Shown: one piece after another, positions 5,966 through 34,100 of the stretch
Layout of the letters: each line of letters opens with the position of its first letter
Position numbering within the stretch: the first letter of the stretch is position 1
Source of the DNA: Sulfurospirillum sp.
Lineage (GTDB): Bacteria; Campylobacterota; Campylobacteria; Campylobacterales; Sulfurospirillaceae
DNA: 34,485 nucleotides
Direction: 5' to 3'
NCBI GenBank assembly: GCA_014859685.1
Contig: JACUTU010000012.1
Coordinates: 1 to 34,485, forward strand
Program-made: the position numbers and the translations under genes
Notes under the pieces: generated by a model
Seen by the model: only the letters and a program-made list of their open reading frames with translations
The model's database searches: none
Told to the model about the DNA's origin: nothing

Positions 5966-7291
5966 CTATACAACTTGAACAGCTATGCGATGACACGCAT
6001 TATTTAAATAACCTCTAGGGTTCCAGCCTGGAACTATTATTGGTTGTGCTTTTCCATTGGTATCTGTAGCGCGTGCCCAAACTTCATAGTATCCTTTTTT
6101 AGGGAATTTTGTGCTTGCTTCCCACTCCTGCCAAGCAAGCCTATTGACCGGTTTTTTTAGAACAGCTTTTTGCCAAGTTGCACCAAAATCTATAGATATA
6201 TCCATATCGCTCACCGACAAATCCCCTGCCCATGCTTTACCCCTAAAGGCAAAAACTTCTCCAAGAGCATGTGTAACGCCAGATTTTGGATAAGTAATTA
6301 TTGATTTTACGGGCATAGATTCAATAATACACATATCTTCATTCGGTACTTTTGAGCCAGGTGCAACAGGATTGCATGGAACTCTGTATGATTGACCTGT
6401 CATTTTTTCACCATCATGTTCTTTGTTTCTGATAACAATCTTTGTTAACCATTTTCCACTTACAGATGCTGGAAAACCACCCGCTATTAAGCGTAAAGGA
6501 AAACCATTGTAATGAGGTATATCTTCCCCTTCATAAGACCAAGCTATAAGAGTTTCATCTTCAAGTGCTTTACTCATAGGAACACCTCTAGATATAACAA
6601 CCCTCGAAGGATCTCCGCTTAGATGAACATCTGCCCCATAATAACCAACATAAACAGCATCATCTTTTATGCCACAAGCATTAAGAACATCTTTGAGTTT
6701 CACACCAGTCCATCTTCCACATCCTATAGCGCCAACCGTCCATTGATTTCCTTTTGCAGGAGGACTCACTTCACTCCGTCCGTTGCCACCACACTCAAGT
6801 TGCAGTGCATATGTATGGTGTTTAAACTTTGATTTAAGATCAGCTATACTAAAAGATTGAGGATTTAAACAACTCTCGCCAGAAATTTCAAGACGCCAAG
6901 CATTTACATCTATACTTGACTCTTCAGGCGGCACGCCATTGTTTCTTATGAAAAAGTGCTTTGCTGGAGTAAACATATCATCTAGCAAATGTGGCGGGGT
7001 TTCTGCATTTACGGGGCGATCATTAAGATAAACCAAACCGTCTTTTCCGGCTATTTTAAAAGGAGTCGTTGTGTCTGCAAGTAGCGCAGGTATTAGACCT
7101 CCTGGCATCTGATTTGCAAAAGGTATGTTTGATCCGACAATTGCTGCCATTGCGAGCAAAGAACTCTTCTTTAAAAATCCTCTTCTAGTCGTAGGATTTA
7201 CTTCTCGTCCGAAGATAGATTTATCTGCTTCGCTAGGATCAATAAAATAGGCTTCATGTAAACCAATTTCTTTTTTTTCATTTTTTTTCAT
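5966..7291 (-). CDS. sorA: SorA-like sulfite:cytochrome c oxidoreductase, molybdopterin subunit
   Basis: This 441-residue molybdoenzyme oxidises sulfite to sulfate in the periplasm. A twin-arginine signal (T-T-R-R-G-F-L-K-K-S, near residue 37) exports it folded with its cofactor. The sulfite-oxidase molybdopterin domain follows, with the molybdenum-binding cysteine in L-E-C-G-G-N-G-R-S. After it comes the dimerisation domain at about residues 310-440 (S-G-V-T-H-A-L-G and S-I-D-F-G-A-T-W). It is paired with the monoheme cytochrome gene downstream, as in C. jejuni Cj0005-Cj0004. Sulfite removal or energy conservation from sulfite is the expected role. Confidence 0.9.
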   Translation of the reverse strand: MKKNEKKEIGLHEAYFIDPSEADKSIFGREVNPTTRRGFLKKSSLLAMAAIVGSNIPFANQMPGGLIPALLADTTTPFKIAGKDGLVYLNDRPVNAETPPHLLDDMFTPAKHFFIRNNGVPPEESSIDVNAWRLEISGESCLNPQSFSIADLKSKFKHHTYALQLECGGNGRSEVSPPAKGNQWTVGAIGCGRWTGVKLKDVLNACGIKDDAVYVGYYGADVHLSGDPSRVVISRGVPMSKALEDETLIAWSYEGEDIPHYNGFPLRLIAGGFPASVSGKWLTKIVIRNKEHDGEKMTGQSYRVPCNPVAPGSKVPNEDMCIIESMPVKSIITYPKSGVTHALGEVFAFRGKAWAGDLSVSDMDISIDFGATWQKAVLKKPVNRLAWQEWEASTKFPKKGYYEVWARATDTNGKAQPIIVPGWNPRGYLNNACHRIAVQVV

Positions 7292-7607
7292 TTTCGCCTC
7301 CAGAATGATTTATTTGTGACTTTATCAGCTAATGTAACTTTTTTTGGTAAACATGACAAGGCATAGGAGTAAGTGTATTTTACTTTTTGTAAATATTGTT
7401 ACTTTTTGTAAATATTGTTGTTTCAAGCCTTAAATCGCAATAAAACACTTTTAATTACGCTTTTACTATAAATAAATTTTATTTTCAATAAAAAAGTAGC
7501 CTGTCCCCATTTTCAAGTATGAAAGATTTATTACTTAAGAGATACTAGCGAATTTTTAAACTATTTTTTGGTAAAATCAAGTATTTTTAAGAATAAAAGG
7601 TTTCATT
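7292..7607. promoter_or_regulatory. Divergent intergenic region between sorA and leuC
   Basis: This 316-base region contains no gene. It holds a 19-base unit (TTACTTTTTGTAAATATTG) repeated in tandem at 7380-7398 and 7399-7417, and an inverted solo REP-like copy at 7490-7514. A plausible leuC -10 box (TAAAAT, 7572-7577) is followed by an AAAAGG ribosome site. The tandem unit is a candidate operator for sorA. Confidence 0.5.
7490..7514 (-). repeat. REP-like repeat, inverted solo copy
   Basis: The copy is AAAAAAGTAGCCTGTCCCC followed by ATTTTC, the reverse complement of the repeat at 5501. It sits between sorA and leuC. Confidence 0.75.
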
Positions 7608-23392: not shown

Positions 23393-24403
23393 ATGCAATG
23401 GAAAAAAGAAACGATTACTCTGCAAGATGACTCAAGGGTTGAAGCGCAAACTCCAATTATCATCTCTGCAAGCAGAGCGACAGATATTCCTGCTTTTTAT
23501 GGCGAATGGTTTATCAAAAGATGGGAAGATGGATATCTCAAATGGACAAATCCTTTCAATGGACAACCTCTTTATGTAAGTTTTAAAAACGCAAGATGTG
23601 TGGTCTTTTGGAGCAAAAATCCACGAGCGATGATGAAACATCTTGATTGGTTGGATGCACATGTGCCAAACTACTACTTCCAGTTTTCACTCAATGACTA
23701 CGACAAAGAGGGCTATGAAGGCAAAATATCTTCAGTTGAGAGTAGAATAAAAACATTTAAAGAGTTGTCCCAAAGGCTAGGTAAAAAAAGAGTTGTTTGG
23801 CGGTTTGACCCGCTTATCCTCACGCAAGAATTAGGCATAGAAGAGCTTTTAAGAAGAGTCAAAAACATCGGCGATGAGCTACATGCGTAAACTGCAAAGT
23901 TGGTTTTTAGCTTTGTGGATATCTCCATCTACAAAAAAGTCCAATCCAACCTAAACAAAGAGCATGTTCCTTACATAGAGTGGACACAACCGCTTATGGA
24001 TACCTTTGCCAAACGCCTCAGCGAACTTAACAAGAAGTGGGGTTTAGAGCTTGCAACATGTACCGAAAAGATAGATCTTGATACTTACGGCATATCGCAC
24101 AACAAATGTATAGATGATGATCTCATGGTAGATCTTTTTTCGCATGACAAAGAGCTGATGGAGTTTTTAGGCGTAGAGATAGAACCTGCGGATCTCTTTA
24201 GCGATGGCAAAGTTGTCAAAACAAAAAAACTAAAAGACAAAGGACAAAGAGAAGATTGTGGCTGTATCATGAGTAAAGACATAGGAGCTTACAACACTTG
24301 CCCACATGAGTGCAACTACTGCTATGCAAACGCTTCTAAAGAGTTAGCAAAGAAAAACTATCAAAAGTACTTAGAAAATCCAAATAGCGAGAGTATAGTT
24401 TAA
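23393..24403 (+). pseudogene. DUF1848 protein interrupted by an in-frame TAA
   Basis: The two halves, 23393-23890 and from about 23891 to 24403, are in the same frame and together form one DUF1848 protein of about 336 codons. The first half opens I-I-S-A-S-R-A-T-D-I-P-A-F-Y, typical of the family. The second ends with a cysteine cluster, C-P-H-E-C-N-Y-C-Y-A, spaced like a radical-SAM Fe-S site (C-x3-C-x2-C). Only a TAA at 23888-23890 (codon 166) breaks it, within D-E-L-H-A-stop-T-A-K-L-V-F-S-F. This is either a recent nonsense mutation or two separately translated halves; a GTG or TTG restart near 23900 is possible. DUF1848 has no established function. Confidence 0.8.
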
Positions 24404-24593: not shown

Positions 24594-25787
24594 ATGCTTA
24601 AATATATACAAAACAAACAAGTAAGAAATATCAGTAGCATATCCTTAGAGTTTATAAGAGAGCAGTATTTAGAAAAACTCACTTCAAAAAATAGGCTTGT
24701 AGGACTTATAGGGCAAAGAGGTGTAGGCAAAACTACTTTGATGCTTCAGTATCTAAAACAAAACTACAAGCCTTATGAGTATCTCTATTTTAGTGCAGAT
24801 GATATTTACATCATCAACAGTAGCATTTATGATATTGCGGATGAATTTGTTCGTCTTGGTGGAAAAATTATTGTCATAGATGAGATTCATAAGTATCAAA
24901 ACTGGGCGAATGAGATAAAGTCTATCTATGATAGTTTTCCGGAACTCATCATACGATTTAGCGGAAGCTCTATGTTAAATATCTTACATGAGAAATTTGA
25001 CTTAAGCAGACGAGCGGTTATAAGCTATGTGAAGCCTTTAAGTTTTAGAGAGTTTTTAAAACTAGATGCTAAGATAGAACTACCAATACTCACCCTTGAA
25101 GAGATACGCAAAAATCACAATGAAATAAGCTCCACTCTAGCACTAGAACATCCAACTTTATATAAAAACTTTTTAAGATACCTACAAATAGGATATTATC
25201 CATTTTTTATAGAGGATGAAATCGAGTACAAAAACAAACTTTTCAATGCGTGTGAAAAAGTGATAAATGAAGATATTCCATCTTTAAACAAAATAGACTA
25301 CACCCACTTAAGTATCTTCAAAAAGTTTATCGCAAAACTTATCTACTCAAAAGTCCCATTTAAAGTAAACATCGCTGAACTTTGCAGGGAGTTTGAAGTA
25401 TCGCACCCTACACTGGCAACTTACTTGGAGATACTAGAAACCACAAAACTTATAAGGCCTATCAAAAAATACTCAAAAAATATATCGAAAAAACCAGAAA
25501 AACTCCTCTTCTCAAATACAAATTTGCTTTATACTTTTGCTGATGAATTTGGTGTGGAAGTTGATATTGGCACGGTGAGAGAGACATTTTTTGTAAGTTG
25601 TTTTGAGAGTATCTATTATAGTGATGTTGGAGATTTTATTGCAGATGGCATCATTTATGAAGTGGGTGGAAAAAATAAAAAGTTTAAGCAAATCAAAGAT
25701 GTCGAAGATAGTTTTGTGGTAGTTGATACAGACTACTCTATGGAACAAAATAAAATCCCATTGTGGTTGTTCGGGTTTGTGTATTGA
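24594..25787 (+). CDS. AAA-14/DUF4143 ATPase, copy 1
   Basis: The 397-residue protein has a P-loop ATPase domain, with Walker A G-Q-R-G-V-G-K-T-T at about residue 40 and Walker B I-I-V-I-D-E-I-H at about 97. A sensor-like R-F-S-G-S-S follows, then a winged-helix region near 255-300 and the C-terminal DUF4143 domain. This large prokaryotic ATPase family is common in accessory DNA, but its job is not settled. A truncated paralogue tail lies at 22999-23166 and a more distant family member at 32395-33600. Inverted repeats cover its promoter. Confidence 0.9.
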   Translation: MLKYIQNKQVRNISSISLEFIREQYLEKLTSKNRLVGLIGQRGVGKTTLMLQYLKQNYKPYEYLYFSADDIYIINSSIYDIADEFVRLGGKIIVIDEIHKYQNWANEIKSIYDSFPELIIRFSGSSMLNILHEKFDLSRRAVISYVKPLSFREFLKLDAKIELPILTLEEIRKNHNEISSTLALEHPTLYKNFLRYLQIGYYPFFIEDEIEYKNKLFNACEKVINEDIPSLNKIDYTHLSIFKKFIAKLIYSKVPFKVNIAELCREFEVSHPTLATYLEILETTKLIRPIKKYSKNISKKPEKLLFSNTNLLYTFADEFGVEVDIGTVRETFFVSCFESIYYSDVGDFIADGIIYEVGGKNKKFKQIKDVEDSFVVVDTDYSMEQNKIPLWLFGFVY

Positions 25788-26424: not shown

Positions 26425-27252
26425 ATGCCAAAAGAAATAAAATATACTGCATTTATAGATGTACTTGGATTTTCAAACCATATTGAAAATAAAATAACTA
26501 ATGACAAAGAATCACAAGACTTTATGCAAGATTTTGAAAAAGTTATAAACTATTTTGAATATGAAAAAATTTCTTTTCCTAATCAACATGATGAACTTAA
26601 AGATATTCATTACAATTACACTTGGATTTCAGATACATTTGTGATAACAATCGAATATAATGGAAATAGCACAAATAAAAATTTATCTGGTTTATTGATT
26701 TATTTGTTAGCATTAACAATTTCACAGGTTTATCATTTTTTTGCTAGAAAGTATGGGTTGCTTTTGAGAGGTGCTATTACATCAAAATATACTTTTTTAG
26801 ATAAAAATCTTATTTTAGGTAAAGGAATAGTAGAAGCCGCAAAATTGGAAAAAGAGATTGCTATTTACCCTAGAGTAATATTTGCAGAAGATGTCATTAG
26901 TGATGAGATTATTAATTACATAGCATTGGTGCATAATGATAATAATTTAAATATTGTTTCTAAAGATTTTGATGGATGGTATTTTGTAAATTATCTTGCT
27001 TCATTGCAAGATTTGCCGCCGATGATATCTGTAGGAAATGAAACTAAATTAGCTGAAGCCAAATCAGATCAAATGGAAACAGTAAAGATTTATTCTCAGA
27101 TTATTGATAAAGGCTTGAAAGAAAAAAATTTAAAAATAAGAAGTAAATATTTTTGGCTAAAAGAGTATTTTAATAGAGTATTGCCAAGTGATGGCAAAAC
27201 AAATATGTTTGCTTATAATATCATAGGAGATAAATTTGATAAAAAAAGATAG
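26425..27252 (+). CDS. Putative divergent class III nucleotidyl cyclase-like protein
   Basis: This 275-residue soluble protein has the order of motifs of a class III cyclase domain. F-I-D-V-L-G-F-S near residue 10 fits the first metal aspartate (compare F-x-D-I-x-G-F). S-D-T-F-V-I near 70 fits the second. L-L-R-G-A-I-T-S, then G-K-G-I-V-E-A-A-K-L-E near 132-142, fits the R-G-x-I-x-x-G ... G-x-x-V-N-x-A-x-R-L-E region. The catalytic Asn and Arg of that last motif appear replaced by Glu and Lys, so activity may be altered or lost. It may make or sense a nucleotide, as in Pycsar-type defence, but that is inference. An AAAGGA site precedes the ATG, and the gene is tightly packed between its neighbours. 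Confidence 0.5.
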   Translation: MPKEIKYTAFIDVLGFSNHIENKITNDKESQDFMQDFEKVINYFEYEKISFPNQHDELKDIHYNYTWISDTFVITIEYNGNSTNKNLSGLLIYLLALTISQVYHFFARKYGLLLRGAITSKYTFLDKNLILGKGIVEAAKLEKEIAIYPRVIFAEDVISDEIINYIALVHNDNNLNIVSKDFDGWYFVNYLASLQDLPPMISVGNETKLAEAKSDQMETVKIYSQIIDKGLKEKNLKIRSKYFWLKEYFNRVLPSDGKTNMFAYNIIGDKFDKKR

Positions 27253-28189
27253 TTTAAATGAATTGAAATTAAAACTAGTAAAGCACAAGAGAGTCTTGGC
27301 AACATCCGAAGAAACCCATATACAATATGATTTATCAATAACTCTGGTTGATAAATTAATCCATATTATCGATGAATTATTAAATACCAATAATGATTTA
27401 CATAAACTAGCTTCGACAACTAGATATATATTAGAAACATTGATAATTACTAAGCTTTTGCTCAAGGAAGAGAATTACTTTGTTAAGATATATTTTGCTA
27501 TATATAATCAGCAAGAAAATAAAAGTAATCTAATAATTCAACGACTTAAATATGAAATTGAAATTTTAAAAAAATATGCTGAAGAACATTCCGTACAGAC
27601 TACACAAAATAGATCAAAATATTCAACACAATCAAATGACGACGAACAAAGACTTCAAGCAACAAAAAAAATTATGGAAGAAAACGAAAAAACATTTCAA
27701 CAACTAAAAAAAGAAGCACAAAAAGACATAACTATTTTTATGAATCAACTTAATAATTATGGTTTTGATGCTTTATCTATAATGCTCGAAAAAGACACTT
27801 TACCTGAATATGAAAATAAATTGAAAAAAATTAAATCTTTAAAATTAGAAAAAGCAAAACAGTTATCAAAAGAGCAATGGTTTAAAAGTTATTTTGGTAA
27901 AAGAGTCCAACACACACAGATTTTTCAAAAAATGTTAAAAGACATTCGAAGTTGGCAGGAAAAAGCAGAGGCAGTTGGACTAAAAGAAGAGTACAAGTTA
28001 AATTATGAGATGACCAGTGCTTTTTTGCATTTTACATCTTATAGTCTTCTAACTCCAAATATTGCAAGTCAAGATGAAATAGATTATAAGTATAGGCTTA
28101 TTAATCAATATATTGAACAGATAACTACAAATATAAGTATTTTTAGTAGAGTGAATTTATATGATAAACTCAATATTATGTATGTTTGA
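27236..28189 (+). CDS. Helical protein of unknown function (DUF5677-like?)
   Basis: The 317-residue protein starts with TTG and overlaps the cyclase-like gene by 17 bases, which argues for linked translation. It is almost all helix: residues 20-110 contain regular leucine/isoleucine heptads, a charged linker follows, and the C-terminal half has T-S-A-F-L-H-F-T-S-Y-S-L-L-T-P. That last segment recalls DUF5677-type proteins found in accessory and defence regions; the match is weak and from memory. No catalytic motif or membrane helix is evident. Spacing to the WD40 gene is 21 bases. Confidence 0.7.
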   Translation: MIKKDSLNELKLKLVKHKRVLATSEETHIQYDLSITLVDKLIHIIDELLNTNNDLHKLASTTRYILETLIITKLLLKEENYFVKIYFAIYNQQENKSNLIIQRLKYEIEILKKYAEEHSVQTTQNRSKYSTQSNDDEQRLQATKKIMEENEKTFQQLKKEAQKDITIFMNQLNNYGFDALSIMLEKDTLPEYENKLKKIKSLKLEKAKQLSKEQWFKSYFGKRVQHTQIFQKMLKDIRSWQEKAEAVGLKEEYKLNYEMTSAFLHFTSYSLLTPNIASQDEIDYKYRLINQYIEQITTNISIFSRVNLYDKLNIMYV

Positions 28190-28210: not shown

Positions 28211-29908
28211 ATGAAAAACAACCTCACAACCACAAACAAAAATGCAAAACTAGCACTAACAAAATCAAAAAGTTTACTTAATATTACAAATAGTTTACTA
28301 GCAAATCGTCCAAGTAAAGAGCTAATTGAGAGCTTTGAGAACTTTAGATTTTCATCTGGTTTAGGGCATAGTGGTAATGTAAATTCCGTAGTCATTACCC
28401 AAAATGAGAAATTCGTAGTTAGTGGTAGCTCTGATAAAACCATAAAATTGTGGGATATAAGTAGTGGTAAAGATGTCCGAACTTTTGAAGGGCATAGTGG
28501 CGGTGTAAGTTCTGTAGCTATTACATACTGTGGAAAATACATCGTAAGCGGTGGAAGCTATGATAAAACTATCAAACTATGGGAAATCAATAGTGGCAAG
28601 GAACTACGAACATTTAAAGGGCATAGTAATAGGGTTCTTTCAGTAGCCATAACTCCTGATGGGCAATATATAGTTAGTGGAAGTTGGGATAAAACCATCA
28701 AATTATGGGAGATAAGTAGTGGTAAAGAAGTGCGAACTTTTGAAGGGCATAAGGATAAAGTAACCTCAGTAGTCATGTCTCCAGATGGAAAATACATAGT
28801 TAGCGGAAGTGATGATAAAACTATTAAACTATGGAAAATGAGCAGGGACAAGGAAGTGAGAACATTCAAGTGGCATAAAAGTTATGTAAACTCTGTAACT
28901 ATATCCCCCGATGGGAAGTATATCGTCTCAGGAAGCTTGGATCAAACAGTCAAACTTTGGGAAATAAGTAGTGGAAAATGTTTGCGAACATTTGAGTGGC
29001 ATAGTGGTAGTGTAAACTCAGTAGTAATATCTGCTGATGGAAAATATATAATTAGTGGAAGTTCTGATGAAACTATCAAATTATGGGAGTTAAGTAGTGG
29101 TAAGGAGCTACAAACATTTAAAGGTCATAGGGGCAATATAATTTCTGTAGCTATATCTGCTAATGGGGAAACTATAGTAAGTGGTGAAAGCTATTATAAC
29201 GGTATCAAACTATGGGACATAAGTAGTGGCAAGGAGCTCAAAACATTCAAAGGGCATAGTTGTCGAATGAATTCTGTAGTCATATCCCCAGATGGGAAAT
29301 ATATAGTAAGTGGAAGTCATGATGGAACTATCAAGCTATGGGAGATAAGTTGTGGTAAGAAGGTGCGAACATTTGAGGGGAGTTGGGTATTCTCCGTAGC
29401 TATAACTCCTGATGGGGAATATATAGTATATTGTGCTAGCTATGATGAAAACAACAAACTATGGGAAATTAATAGCGGTAAAGAGTTACTTACATTTGAG
29501 GAATATGATGATTTGGTAAAATCTGAAAACATAACTACAGATAAAAAATATAGAGTAAGTATAATCCAAGATATAATCATCGAACTACGAGAGATAAGTA
29601 GTGACAAGCTCCTTTGCTCTTATGTAACATTTAAAGAAGGTGAATGGCTCTCTTGGACACCAAATGGATATTATAACTGCTCTAATGGGGCTTATCAATA
29701 TTTCTCTTTTGTAGATGATAGCAAAGAGATGCCTGAAGCTGTACCACAAAATCATCCTGTATATAAAGCAAAGAAAAAAGAGATATTACTTAGTGACTAT
29801 ATAGGTGGCACAAATCCATATTCTAAAAATCCACCTCCACAAACAGACATAGGCGAATATGATGCAATACCACAAATAGACATCGACGAAGACGAAATAC
29901 CATTTTAG
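28211..29908 (+). CDS. WD40 propeller protein with N-terminal tag and SSB-like C-terminal tip
   Basis: The 565-residue protein has a short N-terminal tag (T-N-K-N-A-K-L-A-L-T-K-S-K-S-L-L), shared with the DUF1566 protein at 33600. About nine to ten WD40 repeats follow at residues 52-470, most with G-K-Y-I-V-S-G-S-x-D and T-I-K-L-W. The repeats decay toward the end. Next comes E-W-L-S-W-T-P-N-G-Y-Y-N-C-S, a segment I associate with bacterial WD40 conflict proteins. The protein ends in a Pro/polar linker and the acidic tip D-I-D-E-D-E-I-P-F. The tip matches the pattern of the SSB C-terminus (D-D-D-I-P-F in E. coli). No enzyme domain is present, so it is probably a scaffold or sensor. The next gene starts 12 bases after its stop. 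Confidence 0.92.
   Translation: MKNNLTTTNKNAKLALTKSKSLLNITNSLLANRPSKELIESFENFRFSSGLGHSGNVNSVVITQNEKFVVSGSSDKTIKLWDISSGKDVRTFEGHSGGVSSVAITYCGKYIVSGGSYDKTIKLWEINSGKELRTFKGHSNRVLSVAITPDGQYIVSGSWDKTIKLWEISSGKEVRTFEGHKDKVTSVVMSPDGKYIVSGSDDKTIKLWKMSRDKEVRTFKWHKSYVNSVTISPDGKYIVSGSLDQTVKLWEISSGKCLRTFEWHSGSVNSVVISADGKYIISGSSDETIKLWELSSGKELQTFKGHRGNIISVAISANGETIVSGESYYNGIKLWDISSGKELKTFKGHSCRMNSVVISPDGKYIVSGSHDGTIKLWEISCGKKVRTFEGSWVFSVAITPDGEYIVYCASYDENNKLWEINSGKELLTFEEYDDLVKSENITTDKKYRVSIIQDIIIELREISSDKLLCSYVTFKEGEWLSWTPNGYYNCSNGAYQYFSFVDDSKEMPEAVPQNHPVYKAKKKEILLSDYIGGTNPYSKNPPPQTDIGEYDAIPQIDIDEDEIPF
28360..29500 (+). repeat. Tandem WD40 coding repeats, about 126 bases each
   Basis: Eight or nine units of about 126 bases are similar at the DNA level, with near-identical runs such as AAACTATCAAACTATGGGA and GGAAAATACATAGT. 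Such arrays can change copy number by recombination. They also create long open frames on the minus strand that are artefacts. Confidence 0.85.
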
Positions 29909-29920
29909 GAACCAAGCCAA

Positions 29921-32323
29921 ATGACACAAATACTCAAACGATTAGAGATTATAAAATCTAGTATAGCCATAGAAGATGAAGAGGTCATAGATCTTCAAGT
30001 GATGAAACTTCAAAAGCTTGATATTGATGATGATGTAAAAGCTATAGTTACCCACCTTGAAGCCATGAACTATGCGAAAGCTATGAAAGATATAGAAGCT
30101 TATATCTTGAGATATAGCGGTGTGGTGGAGTATGTAGATAGTGAAGTGCAAGGGCTAAAGCTGGAGCTAAAAAGCTTAGAATCCAAACTCCAAGAGCTAG
30201 TAGAACAAAAAACAGAATACCTAAATGACATCGAAGAGTTCAACCGTGAGTACAATCTGCACTTAGGGGAGCTTATCAAAGATATACTCAACCTAAAAAA
30301 AGAGATACTCTACAAAAAAACCATCAAAAAGCAAAAACAAAAAGTAAAATACCAAGAAGATATACAAACTTTCCAAGAGTCAAAAGAGACCATAGATGAA
30401 CTAAAATCTACTATTTCAGAGCTAGAAGATGCACTTGAAACTATAGATGAAGATGATGAAAATTATGATGAACTCTCACATGCATACAACGAACTCAAAG
30501 AGGAGCTTGAAAAGCTAGAAGATGAACTAGAGCTTCAAGAAGAGGAGCTTGAAAAGGCAAAAGAGTTTATAGAAGATGAGAGCATAGAGCAAGAGTATGA
30601 AGAGGTTAAGAGCCATTATGAAGAGTTTGAGAGTGAGTATGAACATATAAAAGAGTCCGTGCAAAACTCCCCAACCCTCAATGATGAAGAGAAAAAAGAG
30701 CTAAAATCACTCTACAAACAAGCAGCAAGACTGTGCCACCCAGACATCGTACCAGATGAGCTAAAAGAAAAAGCTCATGAGCTTATGCAAAAACTCAACG
30801 ATGCCTATAGTAAAAAAGATATATCAAAAGTAAAAGAGATACTCCACTCACTCCAAAATGGCACAAGCTTTGAACTCTCAAGTGAGACCATAGAAGATAA
30901 AGAACTCCTAAAAGCAAAAATCAAAGAGTACCTCAAAAACATCGAAGCCATTAAATCTGAAATAGAAGAGATAAAAGAAGATGAGACATACCAAACTATA
31001 ACCGAGCTTGATGATTGGGATGTGTATTTTGAAGAGTTAAGAGGTGGCTTGGAAGCAGAGAAAGGCAGGCTTAAAGAGGAAGCTAGAGAGGTTTTGGAGG
31101 AGAAAGAGAAAATAGAAGATAATGTATTGATTCAATGGGCAATACAGAACAATATAGATGAGATTCTAGAACATAAAAATCAATTAGAAAATATAAAAAG
31201 GCTTAGATTAAACGATAAGAATCTTACTCATATTCCAAAAGAAATTACTAGTTTATCTAATTTGGCAGAGCTAAAACTTTGGAAAAATAATTTAGTAGAA
31301 TTACCTGAAGAAATAAGCTCAATGAGTTCTTTAGAGGTATTGACTTTATCAAATAACAACCTGATAAAATTACCAAAAAATATAACACAGCTTAAACTAA
31401 AAAAACTACAACTTCGTGATAATAAATCGTTGATTCTAACTAATGAACAAATACAATGGATAAAAAAACTTAAAGAAAATGGTTGTGATTTTGAAATGGA
31501 TAAAGATTTATTGAGTAGGAAAGATATAGAAACTACACAAGAAAAGAAAATATCTAAAAAAACAGGTGTAACGATTGTTAAAAAGAAAAATCAAAAAGAA
31601 AAAGAAAAATCAGCAACCATTACTAAAGAGGATAGCCCATACGCAAAACATATCCACTCTATTGAAAACATCAAATTTGAAAAGATAAGAAAATATTGCG
31701 AAAATCTCTCAAAATCAAATGAAGCCGATGAGATGCAAAAGCAGTTAGGTAAAACCGGGAAGATGTACAAAGCACTTATCTATAGCTCCCTTGAAGTATT
31801 TATAGAATATCTTAATGGTGAAACCATCACATTGTGTGATTGGGGATGTTCTCAAGGGATAGCCTCTATGCTAGTACTTGACTATATCAAAGAAAAACAA
31901 CTAGATATAAAAGTATCTGATGTAATCCTCATAGATGATGACACAAAATCACTCAGCCGTGCCATGGTACAAGTAGAAGCACTCGCACAAGATGATATAA
32001 AATTCACGCCTATAAAAAGTGATGATAATAGTATTTCCGATACAATAAAATCTATTAAAAACAATAAAGTGATAAATCTTTTTGCAAATGATAAGATACC
32101 TACAAACTTTTGGACTATCAATCATGATATTTTTCATGATAGTTATTTGTTGTGTGTATCAAATGAAAACAAAGAATTTGTTAATGAAGTTTATGAAACT
32201 ATAAATATTTTTCTGCATGTACAAGATGTGTCTATAAGAGACGGTAATATTGGTAGGTTTGATAAATATGAGAGGATATTTAGAACTTTAATAGATATAG
32301 ATAGTGATGAGATACCATTTTAG
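29921..32323 (+). CDS. Coiled-coil / J-like / LRR / methyltransferase-like fusion with SSB-like tip
   Basis: This 800-residue protein has several parts. Residues 1-75 are helical. About 75-240 form a long acidic coiled coil. A J-domain-like helical pair around 260-310 bears H-P-D at 273-275 (L-Y-K-Q-A-A-R-L-C-H-P-D). A further coiled coil follows. About three leucine-rich repeats occupy 426-500 (L-R-L-N-D-K-N-L-T-H-I-P). A Lys-rich linker leads to a Rossmann-like domain from about 575, with D-W-G-C-S-Q-G-I-A at 640 resembling the SAM-binding motif I. The C-terminus is D-I-D-S-D-E-I-P-F, nearly identical to that of the WD40 protein upstream. I know of no named family with this order. J-domain and methyltransferase calls rest on short motifs; the coiled coils and LRRs are clear. 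Confidence 0.85.
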   Translation: MTQILKRLEIIKSSIAIEDEEVIDLQVMKLQKLDIDDDVKAIVTHLEAMNYAKAMKDIEAYILRYSGVVEYVDSEVQGLKLELKSLESKLQELVEQKTEYLNDIEEFNREYNLHLGELIKDILNLKKEILYKKTIKKQKQKVKYQEDIQTFQESKETIDELKSTISELEDALETIDEDDENYDELSHAYNELKEELEKLEDELELQEEELEKAKEFIEDESIEQEYEEVKSHYEEFESEYEHIKESVQNSPTLNDEEKKELKSLYKQAARLCHPDIVPDELKEKAHELMQKLNDAYSKKDISKVKEILHSLQNGTSFELSSETIEDKELLKAKIKEYLKNIEAIKSEIEEIKEDETYQTITELDDWDVYFEELRGGLEAEKGRLKEEAREVLEEKEKIEDNVLIQWAIQNNIDEILEHKNQLENIKRLRLNDKNLTHIPKEITSLSNLAELKLWKNNLVELPEEISSMSSLEVLTLSNNNLIKLPKNITQLKLKKLQLRDNKSLILTNEQIQWIKKLKENGCDFEMDKDLLSRKDIETTQEKKISKKTGVTIVKKKNQKEKEKSATITKEDSPYAKHIHSIENIKFEKIRKYCENLSKSNEADEMQKQLGKTGKMYKALIYSSLEVFIEYLNGETITLCDWGCSQGIASMLVLDYIKEKQLDIKVSDVILIDDDTKSLSRAMVQVEALAQDDIKFTPIKSDDNSISDTIKSIKNNKVINLFANDKIPTNFWTINHDIFHDSYLLCVSNENKEFVNEVYETINIFLHVQDVSIRDGNIGRFDKYERIFRTLIDIDSDEIPF

Positions 32324-32394: not shown

Positions 32395-33600
32395 ATGAAA
32401 AAAAGAACATTAGAATCTATACTCAAAATCGCCCTTGATACTTTTCCTGTAGTGCTTCTAAACGGTGCTAGACAAGTGGGTAAATCAACTCTTGCACTTG
32501 ATAACTTTCAAAACTATCTTACCTTTGATGATGGGGAGCTTCGACTTTATGCAAAGGAAAATCCAAAAGGTTTTTTAAAAAATCTCGACCTGCCTATTTG
32601 CCTTGATGAGATACAAAAAGTACCGACACTCTTAGAATATATCAAGATGCATATAGACTCAAAAAGAGTAAATGGAGATTTTTTACTTACTGGAAGTTCA
32701 AATGTCCTAGACCATAAAGAGAGTAAAGATACTTTAGCGGGCAGACTTTGTGAACTACGGCTTCATCCACTTAGCTCAAAAGAGAAAAATGATAAGCCAA
32801 ATGAAAATATCATTCAAATGCTATTAAACAGAGATTTTAAACTAGCCAAAAAAGATTATACCGATGAAGTATGTGAGCATATTTTAGATGGTGGGTATCC
32901 TGAGATTTTAGAGCTTGGGGGATTGTCAAAGGATTTATGGTTTACCTCTTATATCGCCACATATATAGAAAGAGATGCAAGAGATTTAGCAGATATAAGA
33001 GATATAGATAGTTTTATAAAGTTTGTAAATGTACTAGCTTCAAGAAGTGCAACGATACTCAATAAATCAAGTCTAAGTAATGATATAGGGACAAAAGATA
33101 TTACTACAGATAACTATCTTTCTATCATAAGTCGTATTTATCAAGCGACACTTCTAAAACCATATTTTGTAAATATCGGCAAACAGTTTATAAAGTCTCC
33201 AAAAGTTTTTTTCAACGATACTGGGGTACTTTGTAGTTTGCTTCGTATTAATTCAAAAGAAAAACTTCTAAGTTCAACATATAGCGGACAAATTTACGAG
33301 ACATATATATTTTGTGAACTTCAAAAACATCTCTCATATTTACAAAAATCGGCACAAATGTTTCACTATAGAACCAATGATAAAAAAGAGATAGACTTCA
33401 TCATAGAGGTTAACAATGAGATATTGGCTATCGAAGTAAAACAAAGTAGTAGCGTAAAAAAAGAGGACTTCAAGCATATTATAGACCTGCAAAATAGATA
33501 TGATGAAAAGAGATGCTTGGGCATAGTGTTTTATAATGGAGAGATGGTGGTTGAGTTTAGTGATGATTTGGTAGCTATACCTTTTGGGATATTTTTGTGA
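32395..33600 (+). CDS. AAA-14/DUF4143 ATPase, copy 2
   Basis: The 401-residue protein has Walker A L-N-G-A-R-Q-V-G-K-S-T near residue 22, Walker B L-P-I-C-L-D-E-I-Q near 62, and L-L-T-G-S-S-N near 98. The C-terminal DUF4143 domain ends with a nuclease-like core, E-I-D-F-I-I-E-V and L-A-I-E-V-K, the D-x(n)-E-x-K arrangement seen in this family. It differs from copy 1 in sequence and subfamily. Its stop overlaps the next start (TGATG), so it is translationally coupled to the DUF1566 gene. Confidence 0.92.
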   Translation: MKKRTLESILKIALDTFPVVLLNGARQVGKSTLALDNFQNYLTFDDGELRLYAKENPKGFLKNLDLPICLDEIQKVPTLLEYIKMHIDSKRVNGDFLLTGSSNVLDHKESKDTLAGRLCELRLHPLSSKEKNDKPNENIIQMLLNRDFKLAKKDYTDEVCEHILDGGYPEILELGGLSKDLWFTSYIATYIERDARDLADIRDIDSFIKFVNVLASRSATILNKSSLSNDIGTKDITTDNYLSIISRIYQATLLKPYFVNIGKQFIKSPKVFFNDTGVLCSLLRINSKEKLLSSTYSGQIYETYIFCELQKHLSYLQKSAQMFHYRTNDKKEIDFIIEVNNEILAIEVKQSSSVKKEDFKHIIDLQNRYDEKRCLGIVFYNGEMVVEFSDDLVAIPFGIFL

Positions 33601-34100
33601 TGGATAAAAGTTTAGTTGCTACCAATCAGAATGCCAAAGTGGCTCTATCTAAGGCAAAAGAGTTATTAAAAAGCAGTAAGTCAATTACAAAGAAATATAT
33701 TGATATTATCAATTTTAAAAATGATATTCAAACATGGAAAGATAAAGATACAGGGTTGATTTGGGAAATAAAATCCAGTAACAATATTGATGAAATATAT
33801 ACATACAATGAAGCCGTAAGTTATGTACAAAATCTTAATATAACAAAATTTGGTGGTATTAACAATTGGAAAATACCGAGTATTAATGATTTAGAAACTT
33901 TATCAACTCAAGAAATAAACAATAATTTATACATAAAAAGAATTTTATCTGAAAATAGCGATTGGGCATATTGGTCATCTAGTGTTGCTGCAGAAAATAA
34001 AAGCTATGTATATTATTATAATTTTGGCGAGAAAAGACTGGAGTTTCAAAATTTTAAATGCTACTTAAGATGTGTCAGCAAAGGAAACTGTGATGAATAA
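33600..34100 (+). CDS. DUF1566 (Lcl C-terminal-like) protein with WD40-type tag
   Basis: The 166-residue protein starts at the ATG at 33600 within the TGATG overlap; a GTG one codon earlier is in frame. Its first 30 residues (T-N-Q-N-A-K-V-A-L-S-K-A-K-E-L-L) repeat the N-terminal tag of the WD40 protein. Residues 48-160 form a DUF1566 domain: W-K-D-K-D-T-G-L-I-W, then N-W-K-I-P-S-I-N-D-L-E-T-L, then Y-W-S-S-S, then L-R-C-V. This fold is related to ligand-binding and sulfatase-modifying-factor-like domains. With no signal peptide it should be cytosolic, unlike Legionella Lcl. It overlaps the next gene by 8 bases. Confidence 0.85.
   Translation: MDKSLVATNQNAKVALSKAKELLKSSKSITKKYIDIINFKNDIQTWKDKDTGLIWEIKSSNNIDEIYTYNEAVSYVQNLNITKFGGINNWKIPSINDLETLSTQEINNNLYIKRILSENSDWAYWSSSVAAENKSYVYYYNFGEKRLEFQNFKCYLRCVSKGNCDE

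Follow-up and report, generated by a model that had tools for sequence, protein, structure and literature searches.

Why would two neighbouring proteins that are otherwise unrelated end in the same acidic peptide as the single-stranded DNA-binding protein (SSB) of their own cell? The question is raised by a 34,485-nucleotide stretch of Sulfurospirillum sp. (assembly GCA_014859685.1, contig JACUTU010000012.1, positions 1 to 34,485), referred to here as the window. It encodes a WD40 beta-propeller protein of 565 amino acids (28211-29908, + strand) and, with its ATG at 29921, 12 bases past the WD40 stop, a protein of 800 amino acids (29921-32323, + strand). An earlier note made from the sequence alone had proposed that both tails bind the pockets of SSB partners; the two open reading frames, their SSB-like C-terminal tails and the 12-base gap are exactly as it described them. 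The C-terminal tip of SSB (SSB-Ct) is itself textbook knowledge, and the SSB tail is the hub around which replication and repair are organised in bacteria.

The two proteins and the cell's own SSB

The WD40 protein consists, in order, of an N-terminal helical module, the propeller, a conserved C-block (GEWLSWTPNGYYNCSNG...LSDYIGG), a Pro-rich linker and the SSB-like tail. The C-block has a ratio of nonsynonymous to synonymous substitutions (dN/dS) of 0.25 when compared with genome G273. The protein ends in IPQIDIDEDEIPF (longer stretch ...NPPPQTDIGEYDAIPQIDIDEDEIPF); the tail IDIDEDEIPF lies at 29876-29905 (+), with its last nine residues, DIDEDEIPF, at 29879-29905. The linker before it (approximately GGTNPYSKNPPPQTDIGEYDAIPQ; 29806-29875, +) is predicted to be disordered and differs in length among homologues. 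The Pro-rich stretch NPYSKNPPPQTDIGEYDAIPQ precedes the tail, in agreement with the earlier description of a flexible linker as in SSB. In a structure model the propeller, which has a helix at its N-terminal side, is confident and the C-terminal part is unstructured, with a predicted local distance difference test score (pLDDT) below 50 in the tail; the model was built from three sequences only, and the whole C-terminal part is weak and of low confidence. The N-terminal module, of about 30 residues (TTNxNAKxALxKSKSLLNITNxIL), is common to otherwise different proteins of the locus, namely WD40, leucine-rich repeat (LRR) and Lcl_C proteins. It occurs in the window at 28211-28345 and 33597-33731 and in other stretches (L057 6757-7293; L054 7680-8606 and 13250-14632; L055 7337-9448 and 12013-12468), and it resembles a homotypic adaptor or a tag for sorting.

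The 800-amino-acid neighbour combines a coiled coil, a J-like HPD region (LCHPDIVPDE), LRRs, a class I methyltransferase-like C-terminal domain and the SSB-like tail. The earlier label of a J/LRR protein missed the coiled coil and the methyltransferase-like domain; the J-like region, with HPD present, scores 19.5 bits against PF00226, where the cut-off is 27.8. The C-terminal domain (31628-32290, +) carries motif I as DWGCSQG, and its AlphaFold2 model has a mean pLDDT of 81.5. Its top Foldseek matches are S-adenosylmethionine (SAM) methyltransferases (best E 1.7e-5, TM about 0.5), and the modelled Rossmann-like architecture together with motif I answers to a class I SAM methyltransferase-like fold. 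No NPPY-type motif is visible in the alignment of this domain. A sequence search of the PDB gave nothing convincing for it or for the ADP-ribosyltransferase protein discussed below, and tblastn of the domain against plasmids gave no match. A phage collection yielded a single match, weak and partial, to a record without annotation (25% identity), and IMG/VR two, likewise weak and partial. The protein ends in LIDIDSDEIPF (longer stretch ...FDKYERIFRTLIDIDSDEIPF; tail peptide TLIDIDSDEIPF), with the tail IDIDSDEIPF at 32291-32320 (+) and its last nine residues, DIDSDEIPF, at 32294-32320. The final eight residues of the modelled domain (224-231), right after the last strand, have a pLDDT below 50, so that both models predict a disordered, accessible tail.

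In BLASTP the tail is the only meaningful match between the two proteins (12 of 25 residues identical, at their extreme ends), which agrees with the earlier note and on which ground a common origin is rejected. No match to PF00436, the SSB family with its OB fold, is shown for either. By PF00436 the 2.1-Mb genome of 23 contigs encodes a single SSB (L001), ending in IPDIDIDADEIPF (longer stretch ...GNDIPDIDIDADEIPF). Set against this C-terminus, a comparison that the earlier note had suggested, the tails agree almost residue for residue: all three ends have in common what is effectively I-D-I-D-x-D-E-I-P-F, and WD40 and SSB share the longer I-P-x-I-D-I-D-x-D-E-I-P-F. Both proteins thus have the extreme C-terminal position, the acidic residues and the terminal I-P-F. 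The tail codons differ among the WD40, 800-amino-acid and SSB genes, and neither of the two tails is therefore a recent copy of the other; the WD40 and SSB tail DNA is identical in part (GAAATACCATTTTAG).

Specificity of the motif and its fate in homologues

The pattern [DE][DE]IPF before a stop occurs in exactly three frames of the whole genome, those of SSB, the WD40 protein and the 800-amino-acid protein, with no control matches. For D.[DE].IPF before a stop in 399 genomes of the order, a reversed-pattern control gave 16 matches, or about 0.04 per genome; with control rates so low, two adjacent matches by chance are not credible. A scan of IMG/VR for exact IDIDxDEIPF before a stop found 16 contigs, 15 with an SSB (in two cases truncated where the available stretch stops) and one with a phage DNA helicase. 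In sampled genomes of the order with extra matches the carriers are SSBs and SSB fragments, L072, which is a phage single-stranded DNA-binding protein by PHROG (phrog_743), the proteins of this locus and several unassigned proteins that are small or partial. From these carriers we read the motif as a signature of SSB-Ct that enzymes of single-stranded DNA now and then borrow. The idea that it is a general trait of acidic C-termini is ruled out by the fact that nearly all other carriers are SSBs or such enzymes. The phage helicase (593 amino acids, phrog_16; L139 3157-4938, IMGVR_UViG_3300020045_012645), which ends in MDFPEIDIDMDEIPF, is a natural SSB-Ct mimic.

Homologues of the C-terminal domain of the 800-amino-acid protein form a rare family (alignment A1). 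Among several hundred genomes searched, its members are our protein and those of G001 (same genus), G131, G273, G422, G434 and G100, with a degenerate copy in G501. The tail is kept, behind changed linkers, in the methyltransferase-type proteins of G273 (TPTIDIDSDAIPF), G001 (LDIYIDEDEIPF) and G422 (LDIAEDEIPF). It is also kept in the WD40 partners of two Sulfurimonas genomes, G273 and G421, which end in MPEIDIDDDEIPF behind the conserved C-block, with a seven-residue gap in the linker relative to ours. In G001 the protein neighbouring the methyltransferase-type one ends DINIDDDEILF. Substitution counts against G273 (dN/dS 0.08-0.45) indicate purifying selection on both genes.

Conservation of the tail, which the earlier note had proposed to check, is mixed: these proteins keep it, and two genomes differ. 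G100 carries it elsewhere, since its methyltransferase protein is tail-less and the adjacent LRR protein ends in SKIEIDDDEIPF. In G131 (Sulfurimonas STE_9) the WD40 and methyltransferase pair keeps its domains and neither protein has a tail, which is part of what the note had named as evidence against its idea. Since one such pair lacks the tail on both proteins, the tail is a module rather than an obligatory part. The G501 relative (L104, G501:C69, about 6298-7579) is a J-methyltransferase gene with many stops, flanked by transposase-like and recombinase-like frames; it represents decay of the locus.

Possible roles of the tails

The homologous loci place the tailed pair in a wider setting, with an ADP-ribosyltransferase/SF1-helicase module that the earlier note had missed. 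In G273 the gene order is WD40, J/LRR/methyltransferase, AAA_14, LRR, superfamily 1 (SF1) helicase (362 amino acids), a PF22546 2CompART protein (430 amino acids), a methyltransferase-like protein with DUF4145 (639 amino acids) and an LRR protein. Our genome has a 2CompART copy (PF22546, E 3.5e-21) on contig C16, which in reverse complement opens inside a second AAA_14 gene, of which it has the end, and continues with helicase, 2CompART, methyltransferase-DUF4145 and LRR genes. The window contig ends at 34485, and C16 probably follows it; a near-repeat of one of the AAA_14 ATPase genes probably caused the assembly break between them. Models matched by the SF1 helicase of the locus are GajB, NERD-UvrD and Nhi. 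Few genomes have PF22546 (5 of 399); it is found above cut-off beside an SF1 helicase on C16 and in G273, G001, G422, G369 and G074. The tailed J-methyltransferase proteins (ours, G273, G001 and G422) all occur in genomes with this module, and the genome of the tail-less G131 pair has no PF22546 match; the number of cases is tiny, and a link between tail and module is suggestive.

We suspect, at a probability of roughly 0.56, that the modular proteins of an accessory conflict or defence locus carry a genuine SSB-Ct mimic that docks to the SSB-partner pockets of the host. The mimic itself is seen in the sequences: acidic tails ending in I-P-F, predicted to be disordered, match the C-terminus of the cell's own SSB and recur as a module, gained or lost, on non-SSB proteins of a variable locus whose content is that of a conflict system. 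The WD40 and J/LRR/methyltransferase-like proteins would be modular subunits of this horizontally moving, probably anti-phage conflict locus, to which relatives add an SF1 helicase, a 2CompART ADP-ribosyltransferase and a second methyltransferase-like protein. Docking into host pockets is likely from the sequences, and the tail may fit those of PriA, RecO, RecG, DnaG and the like, proteins that gather on SSB-coated single-stranded DNA. Sensor or effector proteins of the locus could so be brought to intermediates of replication and repair, those formed by invading DNA among them. Binding, recruitment and a role in defence are what we infer from sequence. The earlier interpretation survives insofar as the tail equals that of the cell's own SSB, is diagnostic of SSB elsewhere and is kept while linkers change; its strict conservation does not, as G131 and G100 show.

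Several points weigh against this proposal. The homologous loci are few (about seven genomes), and the tail-less G131 pair is one of them. SSB-Ct pockets vary between bacteria, and the PriA of S. aureus has none (PMC5531588); because pocket chemistry varies between species, the identity of the partner is not to be assumed from E. coli (PMC5531588). PriA is present in our genome, and its SSB-Ct pocket residues could not be made out by alignment. The position of the ADP-ribosyltransferase module beside the window, whose contig ends at 34485, is deduced from G273.

A more ambitious version, which we think less likely, is that a conflict complex of several subunits, acting by ADP-ribosylation, uses the SSB-Ct peptide as its common docking code. 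Its WD40, LRR and J/methyltransferase subunits would compete with SSB or imitate it on its partners, and the complex might in this way read or hijack the state of single-stranded DNA at the replication forks of invaders.

Rather unlikely, to our minds, is docking within the locus itself, where the tail would bind a receptor that normally reads the SSB tail (the SF1 helicase or 2CompART) and so assemble the complex. The coincidence of tailed J-methyltransferase proteins with the 2CompART/SF1-helicase module, and the missing PF22546 match in G131, would fit this arrangement. The cases are very few, however, G100 has a tailed LRR protein and no PF22546 match, and the 362-amino-acid helicase lacks a known peptide-pocket domain.

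Doubtful to a greater degree is the possibility that the tails are decoys, which would resemble the SSB of the host and so catch phage proteins that seize SSB-Ct or its partners, with capture triggering an effector. Sensors are typically built on WD40 and LRR repeats, and the defence systems AbpAB, Hna, Nhi, Retron-Eco8 and Hachiman are triggered by the SSB or the replication complexes of phages (PMC10732053). Those systems sense phage SSB itself, however, rather than ligands of SSB-Ct.

The tails might also be functionless relics, ends of SSB genes captured by recombination in a fast-shuffling locus. The locus does shuffle modules, as the common N-terminal module and the swapped C-termini indicate, and WD40 and SSB share part of their tail DNA. 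We nevertheless find this improbable: the conserved tails contain synonymous changes, they stay while linkers vary, and they occur in several unrelated protein contexts with differing codons. Chance similarity, conceivable for so short a motif, can practically be dismissed at the control rate given above, with two adjacent matches here and repeated matches at homologous loci.

Surroundings, known systems and meaning

Downstream of the tailed pair lie an AAA_14/DUF4143 ATPase gene (32395-33600, +; PADLOC PDC-S01, E 2e-121), which adjoins the pair in G273 too, and a gene for an Lcl_C (DUF1566) protein (33597-34100, +) that has the N-terminal module of the WD40 protein and no SSB tail. ATPases of the PDC-S01 type recur in the locus, in the window at 24594-25787 and 32395-33600 and at the start of reverse-complemented L057. 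Upstream, two tightly spaced genes (26425-27252 and 27236-28189, +; the second with a weak DUF5677 match) possibly form one transcription unit with the WD40 gene. A DUF1848-like gene, which borders the variable locus in relatives, has a single in-frame stop after residue 165 in the window (23393-24403) and is intact in G273, G001, G131 and G100. In several Campylobacterales (L054, L039, L057, L102 and L103) the SF1 helicase, 2CompART, methyltransferase-DUF4145 (636-641 amino acids) and short LRR genes form a conserved cassette.

The tails resemble bacterial SSB-Ct in the acidic D/E run ending in I-P-F, the C-terminal position and the flexible segment, and they are near-identical to the end of the cell's own SSB; here, however, the carriers are WD40 and J/LRR/methyltransferase-like proteins without an OB fold. 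The phage or mobile-element proteins with an SSB-type tail (L072 and the L139 helicase) have the same motif on a carrier that is not a cellular SSB, but they are replication proteins, whereas the tailed pair looks like sensor or modifier subunits of a conflict locus. Two-gene systems of SF1 helicase and 2CompART (PF22546) are contained in the homologous loci and on C16. In the present locus WD40, J/LRR/methyltransferase, methyltransferase-DUF4145 and LRR genes are added to the pair, and two of the added products are tailed; in G369 and G074 the pair stands without WD40 or J-methyltransferase genes, and no tailed proteins were found in the stretch read. Nhi, Hna, AbpAB, Retron-Eco8 and Hachiman are comparable as defences tied to single-stranded DNA or SSB complexes, and the locus helicase matches the Nhi and GajB models, but no SSB-Ct mimic is reported for any of them in the searchable literature. 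Gabija joins a GajA OLD/TOPRIM nuclease to the GajB helicase; the locus differs in that its GajB-like helicase match is only partial and no GajA-like partner was noticed among the neighbours read.

The earlier note knew of no described system with this tip on WD40 and J/LRR proteins, and our literature search, which covered non-subscription papers, likewise found no description of WD40, LRR or J proteins that carry an SSB-Ct mimic. SSB-Ct is known; what appears to be new, in the searchable literature, is that an ADP-ribosyltransferase/helicase locus has it on WD40, LRR and methyltransferase-like proteins. The finding suggests a search rule, namely to look for non-SSB proteins whose end equals the host's own SSB-Ct. 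If our proposal is true, mobile loci of a defence-like kind would have, in an SSB tail on their sensor- and modifier-type proteins, a direct way to sit on single-stranded DNA, to watch it or to compete there.

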